Source: Nitrospirota bacterium (lineage in GTDB: Bacteria > Nitrospirota > Leptospirillia > Leptospirillales > Leptospirillaceae). Taken from it: a DNA stretch of 53,468 nt. The stretch is taken from assembly GCA_021828805.1 (NCBI GenBank), contig JAJZCZ010000003.1, forward strand, positions 1 through 53,468. Reading direction: 5' to 3'. Below are positions 35,698-37,184 of the stretch, in pieces. The first letter of the stretch is position 1. Each line of letters starts with the position of its first letter. Under the pieces are notes generated by a model that saw nothing but the letters and a program-made list of their open reading frames with translations, was not told the DNA's origin and searched no databases. A program made the translations under genes and the position numbers.

Positions 35698-36618
35698 TTA
35701 GTGGAAGACCGGGCTCAGGGGAGCCCCTTTCCGGCTCCGGGGAGCGGGTGAGGCAGAGGCCGGGGGAACGGGGGCCAAGGGGAGGGCCAGGTTGCCGCTC
35801 TCCCAGAGTGCGCGAAGACAGTCGGTGTGGAAGGCATGACCGCCGCGACGGACGACAAAGCGTCCCAGGATCGGCCGGTCCAGAAGGCGCATGTCCCCGA
35901 GAAAATCGAGAATCTTGTGCCGGACAAATTCATCGTCGTAGGTCTGCTGCTCCGGGTTGAGCAGAGCCTCCTTGCCCATGACGAGGGCATTGGACAGACT
36001 CCCTCCCTTGGCAAGGCCCATCGACCGCATTTTCTGGATATCAGACTCAAAGCAGAAGGTCTTGGCCCGGGAAATTTCCTGGTCGTAGACCCCTTCCGAG
36101 AGCGTGAAGACCGCCCGCTGGACAAGGCCTCCCCCGAAATCGATCTCATAGTCGACCTCGAAGGTCTCCGAGGGAGCCACGGACAGAAACCGTCCTTCCG
36201 ATGAAAACTCTTCCGGACGGGTAATACGGTAGAAGGACTGCTTCTTCTTTTGCTCGCACAGACCGGCGGTCCGGATGGCTTCGATGACATTCTTCGCGGA
36301 GCCATCGAGAATGGGAAGCTCCGCCCCGTCGACCTCGGCAATGACATTGTCAACCGAGAGTCCGGAGAGAGCCGAAAGAAGGTGCTCAACTGTCTGGACA
36401 GTCGCCTGACCATCAAAGAGGACGGTCGAGAGGGTCGAGCGTTCCCGACTGACGAATCGGACATGGGCCGGGATATAGACCGAGCCAAGGTCGGAGCGGT
36501 GAAAGACAATGCCATGGTTCTCCGGAGCCGGGCGGAGGACAAGCGTCACTTCCCGTCCCGAATGGAGTCCGACTCCCCGGATTTCAACCGGGCGAACGAG
36601 CGTCTTCTGAAGCCTCAC
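35698..36618 (-). CDS. lpxC: UDP-3-O-acyl-N-acetylglucosamine deacetylase LpxC
   Basis: This 306-aa zinc enzyme catalyses the first committed step of lipid A synthesis. VQTVEHLLSALSG (first zinc His), DGAELPILDGSA and RHKILDFLGDM (further zinc ligands) and GGHAFHTD near the C-terminus are in place. GTG at 36618 is preferred to a longer in-frame ATG because GGAGG lies 6 nt upstream and the family start (LQKTLVRPVEI) follows. An upstream sequence has the spacing of a sigma54 promoter. It is not next to ftsZ as in Proteobacteria. Confidence 0.95.
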   Translation of the reverse strand: MRLQKTLVRPVEIRGVGLHSGREVTLVLRPAPENHGIVFHRSDLGSVYIPAHVRFVSRERSTLSTVLFDGQATVQTVEHLLSALSGLSVDNVIAEVDGAELPILDGSAKNVIEAIRTAGLCEQKKKQSFYRITRPEEFSSEGRFLSVAPSETFEVDYEIDFGGGLVQRAVFTLSEGVYDQEISRAKTFCFESDIQKMRSMGLAKGGSLSNALVMGKEALLNPEQQTYDDEFVRHKILDFLGDMRLLDRPILGRFVVRRGGHAFHTDCLRALWESGNLALPLAPVPPASASPAPRSRKGAPLSPVFH

Positions 36619-36666
36619 CTCTTTCCTCCGTTCCCTGCAGTTGGCATCGTCACAGATTGCATGTCT

Positions 36667-36690
36667 GTGGCACTGCAATTTTCCTGCCAC
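36667..36690 (-). promoter_or_regulatory. Predicted sigma54 (-24/-12) promoter of lpxC
   Basis: On the minus strand TGGCAG (36689-36684), five bases and TTGCAG (36678-36673) match the sigma54 consensus TGGCAC-N5-TTGCA, with the invariant GG-N10-GC spacing. The predicted start is near 36664, about 46 nt ahead of the lpxC GTG. The same bases form an inverted repeat GTGGCA-N12-TGCCAC, so part of the signal could instead be an operator. Confidence 0.5.
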
Positions 36691-36796
36691 GAAAAATATT
36701 TTTCAGGAATATTGGAAAGAAGAGGATTTACGAGAAATACCCTGAGGGAGGACGAGGAGAAAAAAGGGCCACGTGTGTCAGATTTTCCCGGATAAT

Positions 36797-36812
36797 GTGG
36801 CATCAATGCCAC
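36797..36812 (-). promoter_or_regulatory. Dyad GTGGCAT-CA-ATGCCAC, possible enhancer site
   Basis: This is a perfect 7+7-bp inverted repeat with a 2-bp centre. It lies about 140 bp upstream of the predicted sigma54 start of lpxC, a normal place for an activator's upstream binding site. The half-site GTGGCA recurs at 36667 and 36690. Confidence 0.4.
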
Positions 36813-36837
36813 AAACGGAGTCCCCCCTCCTTCTCTT

Positions 36838-37146
36838 TTAAGGATAGGAGGAGGGGGGCTTTGTGAACATGGTGACGATTGGCAAAACACCGACGCCGGT
36901 CAGAAAGAGGATCAGGACGATGATCAATGTGACAAAGAGCCAAGTGGGAACCTTAAAATCTTCCCGCTCCTGCCACTGTTTGCGGAGGATGAAAAAGACA
37001 AAGGCAACAAAAAACAGCAGGGCGACGGAGGCAGCCCCCTTCATCAGGGGATCCTTTACGCTGTAAAGAACCCACGCGATGACGATCAGGACCACCACCG
37101 GCATGATGATCTTGAGAAACATCCTTTTTTCCAGAGACTTTGCCAC
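36838..37146 (-). CDS. Small membrane protein, unknown
   Basis: This 102-aa protein has three predicted membrane helices (about 11-31, 36-55 and 68-92), with a basic N-terminus and a basic-acidic loop (RKQWQERED). No family is recognised. It follows PEP carboxylase by 38 nt on the same strand and is probably co-transcribed with it. Confidence 0.65.
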   Translation of the reverse strand: MAKSLEKRMFLKIIMPVVVLIVIAWVLYSVKDPLMKGAASVALLFFVAFVFFILRKQWQEREDFKVPTWLFVTLIIVLILFLTGVGVLPIVTMFTKPPSSYP

Positions 37147-37184
37147 GTCTTTGCTCCTTGAGTGAAAACGCTCCCGGTCGCGGA

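Follow-up and report, generated by a model that had tools for sequence, protein, structure and literature searches.

Conserved sigma54-type promoter and palindromic putative activator sites ahead of lpxC in the phylum Nitrospirota

In most of the phylum Nitrospirota, the lipid A gene lpxC is preceded by a -24/-12 element of the sigma54 type and by an upstream palindrome whose spacing is set relative to that element. It is highly probable that lpxC is read from a sigma54 promoter with the help of a looping activator at tandem palindromes, for which an NtrX-type response regulator is the likeliest candidate. Activator control of lpxC through sigma54 had been proposed in an earlier note on this DNA, and it is supported by the presence of rpoN in the genome and by the conservation of both the GG/GC pair and the dyad.

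The window, meaning the whole stretch of 53,468 nucleotides that was analysed, is contig C119 of a 1.88 Mb, 78%-complete Nitrospirota MAG, to which the closest named relatives are 'Nitrospirae bacterium' MAGs from acid environments. The lpxC gene (UDP-3-O-acyl-N-acetylglucosamine deacetylase) occupies 35698-36618 on the minus strand and encodes 306 aa, with matches to Pfam LpxC (305.6 bits) and to TIGR00325 (262.9 bits, over its cut-off). Its GTG start at 36618 is backed by comparison across the source family, and a Shine-Dalgarno-like GGAGG precedes it at 36625-36629. The genes upstream of lpxC in the window encode a small membrane protein without known family and PEP carboxylase. The former, a predicted membrane protein of 102 aa (36838-37146, minus strand) with no match in Pfam or NCBIfam, lies directly upstream of lpxC in nearly all source-family genomes. 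LpxC itself is present in 19 of the 21 source-family genomes and, among 148 Nitrospirota genomes, was found in 144; the four in which lpxC was not found (G003, G007, G047 and G089, the last 99% complete) possibly reflect lipid A loss or assembly gaps. In addition, a longer LpxC homologue with an open frame of about 444-496 aa occurs in family f6 (G042, G061, G058, G073, G025, G064 and G034), as a second copy in some genomes and as the sole match in others.

The -24/-12 element ahead of lpxC reads TGGCAGGAAAATTGCA at 36689-36674 on the minus strand. As had been claimed for it, the GG-N10-GC spacing is exact, with the GC at 36676-36675; the gap from the -12 C to the GTG is 56 nt. Sigma54 transcripts usually start 11-13 nt past the -12 C, and from this spacing the transcription start is predicted at 36662-36664. 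Taken by frequency, the element is unexceptional: TGGCAN6TTGCA has a single exact occurrence in the window, and in the 1.88 Mb genome the shorter TGGCAN6TTGC is matched 14 times and its reversed control 11 times, a count that proves nothing by itself. It is conservation, not this count, that places the signal far above chance. The earlier note had also pointed to four GTGGCA half-sites in the region. Extra halves are indeed seen, and those at 36690-36685 and 36672-36667 form a second inverted pair, GTGGCA-N12-TGCCAC (36667-36690, minus strand), overlapping the promoter. This pair is species-specific, being absent from the nearest relatives (L003-L006), and the significance of the half-sites is thus partly a species coincidence. 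The activator or another protein could occlude the promoter by binding there, or the pair could be due to chance.

Within the source family, the GG-N10-GC element stands before lpxC in all 19 genomes that carry the gene, with the -24 beginning 56-125 nt before the start codon, and it is kept down to 53% LpxC identity, while the flanks diverge. Beyond the family, 40 lpxC loci from 26 other Nitrospirota families were scored over 300 bp ahead of the gene against a fixed consensus with a maximum of 14.5. A score of at least 13.5 was reached by 33 of the 40, compared, in the same DNA, with 0.5% of 2162 background windows of 300 bp and with 1% of the upstreams of 190 other ORFs (binomial 4e-69). In Pseudomonadota and Bacteroidota, none of eight lpxC upstreams scored above 12.5, and 11 upstreams of ntrYX-type operons scored at most 11. 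Because background windows, lpxC of other phyla and ntrYX-type upstreams score low, the -24/-12 feature belongs to lpxC of Nitrospirota. Exceptions are families f7 and f2 (one of three loci), where the promoter is weak, and f15, where the -12 has no GC. The loss of the GG/GC pair in close relatives, named earlier as a possible refutation, was thus not seen in the source family or in most of the phylum. An alternative is that the -24/-12 match is fortuitous and that lpxC is transcribed from a housekeeping promoter or by read-through. It could draw on the genome-wide count, no higher than that of the reversed control, and on the short co-directional upstream genes, which could allow read-through; however, conservation over 27 families, at 33 of 40 loci against a background of 0.5%, excludes chance, and no sigma70-like site was found near lpxC (36600-37150). 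We therefore give this alternative very little credence.

The position of the element also bears on the lpxC message. At 20 of the 40 outside loci the gap between the -12 C and the lpxC start codon is just 13-22 nt, and at 16 of these it is 13-17 nt (L106, L108, L109, L115, L120, L122, L123, L125-L128, L131, L133 and L138-L140), and most of these short-gap loci have no Shine-Dalgarno sequence. If transcription begins at the normal distance of 11-13 nt from the -12 C, the resulting mRNA would be leaderless or nearly so; many Nitrospirota families are therefore predicted to read an essential gene into leaderless sigma54 transcripts. In the source family, by contrast, lpxC has a leader with a GGAGG-like site.

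Upstream of the promoter lies the perfect dyad that had been described previously. The sequence GTGGCATTGATGCCAC is exact at 36812-36797 and extends to a perfect 18-mer palindrome, TGTGGCATTGATGCCACA, at 36813-36796 on the minus strand (7-N4-7). Its distance had been put at about 140 bp; the centre is in fact 115 bp from the -24 element, a little closer. Sigma54 upstream activator sites are expected at about -80 to -200, and the conserved palindrome lies at such a distance. A weaker putative activator site, CCGGGAAAATCTGACACA, was recognised by eye at 36774-36791 (minus strand), 22 bp or two helical turns from the distal palindrome; it falls under the score limit in the window, and the same second site in L004 and L005 scores 16.6-21.3 at 92 bp. 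Across the source family the site follows TGTGGCA-N4-TGCCACA, with some variation; it is often duplicated at a spacing of about 20-22 bp, and relatives keep the 7-N4-7 geometry. In the source genome, the 18-mer occurs once within one mismatch and at one other place (C138:6675) within two, the reversed control giving none. Further targets of the palindrome were sought with a degenerate pattern in the 21 source-family genomes and discarded: every zero-mismatch match precedes lpxC, and at one mismatch the pattern is about as frequent as its control.

The enhancer code extends to other families, in which the palindrome lies mostly 47-140 bp from the -24 element. A symmetric matrix trained on source-family sites only and applied to the 40 outside loci gave p<0.05 in 21 of them (Fisher combined p ~1e-24), with 13 of the 40 best matches at 69-72 bp from the -24 element. 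With a matrix that included outside sites, 15 of 36 fell at 69-72 bp and the whole set showed phasing of about 11 bp, which becomes weak without the 70-bp cluster (p 0.025). A spacing fixed relative to the promoter would fit the need of an activator to loop to the polymerase. Alternatively, the palindrome could have nothing to do with sigma54 and act as a repressor site, or as an RNA or terminator hairpin belonging to the upstream gene. Such a role would suit a perfect inverted repeat located 25 bp past the upstream gene's stop, but no T-run follows it, a terminator scan finds nothing there, and Rfam returns only chance matches, none above the gathering score. Furthermore, the palindrome keeps a spacing tied to the -24 element, and it accompanies lpxC even where tldD or some other gene has taken the upstream position; for this last reason in particular, the repressor or terminator reading is disfavoured and considered improbable.

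The sigma54 machinery itself is present in the source genome. The search for rpoN that had been suggested found it, with a Sigma54_DBD domain on contig C128 (E 1.3e-59), together with six strong Sigma54_activat proteins, five of which carry a GAFTGA-type loop. In the proposed mechanism, sigma54 RNA polymerase would transcribe lpxC from the element at 36689-36674. An AAA+ enhancer-binding protein would occupy the tandem palindromes TGTGnnA-N4-TnnCACA at 36813-36796 and 36791-36774, which would lie on the same helix face as the promoter, loop to the polymerase and melt the promoter by ATP hydrolysis. The synthesis of LpxC, the committed step of lipid A formation, would then be switched by this activator, with lpxC as its only strong target in the source genome. 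If the protein is of the NtrX type, it and its partner, an NtrY-type membrane histidine kinase, would signal the condition of the envelope.

The candidate activators were narrowed by tracing four groups through the phylum, namely NifA-like, PAS, NtrX-type and a response regulator with the helix motif SYKTLL. Of 37 genomes, which represent all 29 families, 36 gave a clear single ortholog of the NtrX-type regulator, the incomplete (78%) source MAG being the one exception; this regulator is the only one of the four groups occurring in every family examined, and the GAFTGA-type loop is intact in all its orthologs but one. In the source family it is seen at L075:6892-10523 as a receiver, Sigma54_activat and HTH_8 protein that follows a HAMP/PAS histidine kinase of the NtrY type. 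NtrX is the model that fits the regulator best, at 469-525 bits; the label NtrX-type, rather than NtrX, is used because the curated 600-bit equivalog cut-off is not reached. The gene is not linked to lpxC, and its helix reads DRTSLHRKLR in the source family and ERSNLHRKIK-like elsewhere. A DUF4390 gene precedes the NtrY/NtrX-type pair in the five loci checked outside the source family; within the family (L074 5482-9143, L075 5637-10523) its place is taken by a membrane-anchored protein of 422 aa (G004) that belongs to no known family. Sigma54 autoregulation of the ntrYX-type operon was also considered and rejected, no promoter being found in its 11 upstreams (all 11 or below). On phyletic coherence, the NtrX-type regulator is tentatively named as the likeliest lpxC activator, at a confidence somewhat short of even.

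The chances are about equal that the same sigma54 promoter is served by an activator that is not of the NtrX type, be it a set of lineage-specific proteins, the SYKTLL regulator with the helix SYKTLLTKIKEYGL, or another universal activator. In families f5, f14, f19, f20 and f22 the SYKTLL regulator, retained as the main rival, is encoded a few kb or less from lpxC, in a conserved cluster that also holds MTA phosphorylase and tldD. In D. vulgaris, moreover, the lpxC-specific response regulator is encoded in one operon together with a kinase and a protein of the HD-GYP type; the orthologous operon of Syntrophobacter is directly adjacent to lpxC (PMC3333781). Nevertheless, a clear ortholog of the SYKTLL regulator is lacking in f1, f10, f15 and f17, although an lpxC enhancer or promoter exists there, its helix was not seen among the source-family activators retrieved, and the enhancer code is common to families with and without it. 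The NifA-like GAF activator was set aside, being near lpxC in one genome (L121) and absent from f6, f8, f10 and f17, as was the PAS activator beside the trp genes, whose full-length ortholog is traceable only in a minority of families. All three groups are disfavoured relative to the NtrX-type regulator because each is missing from whole families that keep promoter and enhancer. As a separate observation, the rival NtrC-type regulator with the helix SYKTLLTKIKEYGL, an MTA-phosphorylase-like gene, a tldD-like gene and lpxC are grouped at L108, L109, L125, L133 and L135.

The supply of lipid A is commonly held to be governed by proteolysis of LpxC, which in enterobacteria is exerted through FtsH/LapB. 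The same enzyme serves as the lipid A control point in both settings, through protein turnover in enterobacteria and, as proposed here, through transcription in Nitrospirota. A 2025 review of lipid A regulation does not mention sigma54. Transcriptional control of lpxC has precedents, however. In D. vulgaris, lpxC (DVU2917) is the single DAP-chip target of the sigma54 response regulator DVU2934 (PMC3333781, PMC4641369). Compared by description, DVU2934 resembles the proposed Nitrospirota activator as a sigma54-dependent response regulator with GAFTGA and lpxC as sole target, but it belongs to another phylum, and its motif before lpxC was reported only in three Desulfovibrio genomes. For Leptospira, a sigma54-type promoter is likewise predicted ahead of lpxC, by Proscan (PMC12655853); this is a prediction only, in a spirochaete, with no enhancer described. 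In two alphaproteobacteria, lpxC is under two-component transcriptional control by NtrYX (PMC12444477), and in Rhodobacter sphaeroides and Caulobacter the NtrY kinase and NtrX regulator strongly affect the lpxC transcript (PMC7240162, PMC12444477). There, NtrYX lowers lpxC within a broad regulon, whereas sigma54 activation is suggested for Nitrospirota. The NtrX site proposed in Rhodobacter, GCAn9TGC, was not found at lpxC and differs from the Nitrospirota lpxC palindrome (PMC7240162). The view that activator control of lpxC would be unusual is thus weakened by the Desulfovibrio, Leptospira and alphaproteobacterial cases, while its phylum-wide reach is new. In the literature examined, there is no report of the Nitrospirota lpxC promoter, its enhancer code or its phylum-wide reach; the conservation across the phylum, the enhancer code and the predicted near-leaderless lpxC mRNAs are new.

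If the proposed mechanism is true, outer-membrane synthesis would be gated by a signal throughout a phylum. An lpxC promoter dependent on an activator alone predicts that rpoN is essential in Nitrospirota. Activation of lpxC may, as a more speculative suggestion than the NtrX-type assignment itself, even be an ancestral role of NtrYX-type systems, one that would make rpoN essential in the phylum. In Geobacter rpoN is an essential gene, as it is in Myxococcus, where the cause has not been explained (PMC2725144); a sigma54-dependent lpxC would offer a testable explanation for an essential rpoN of this kind.
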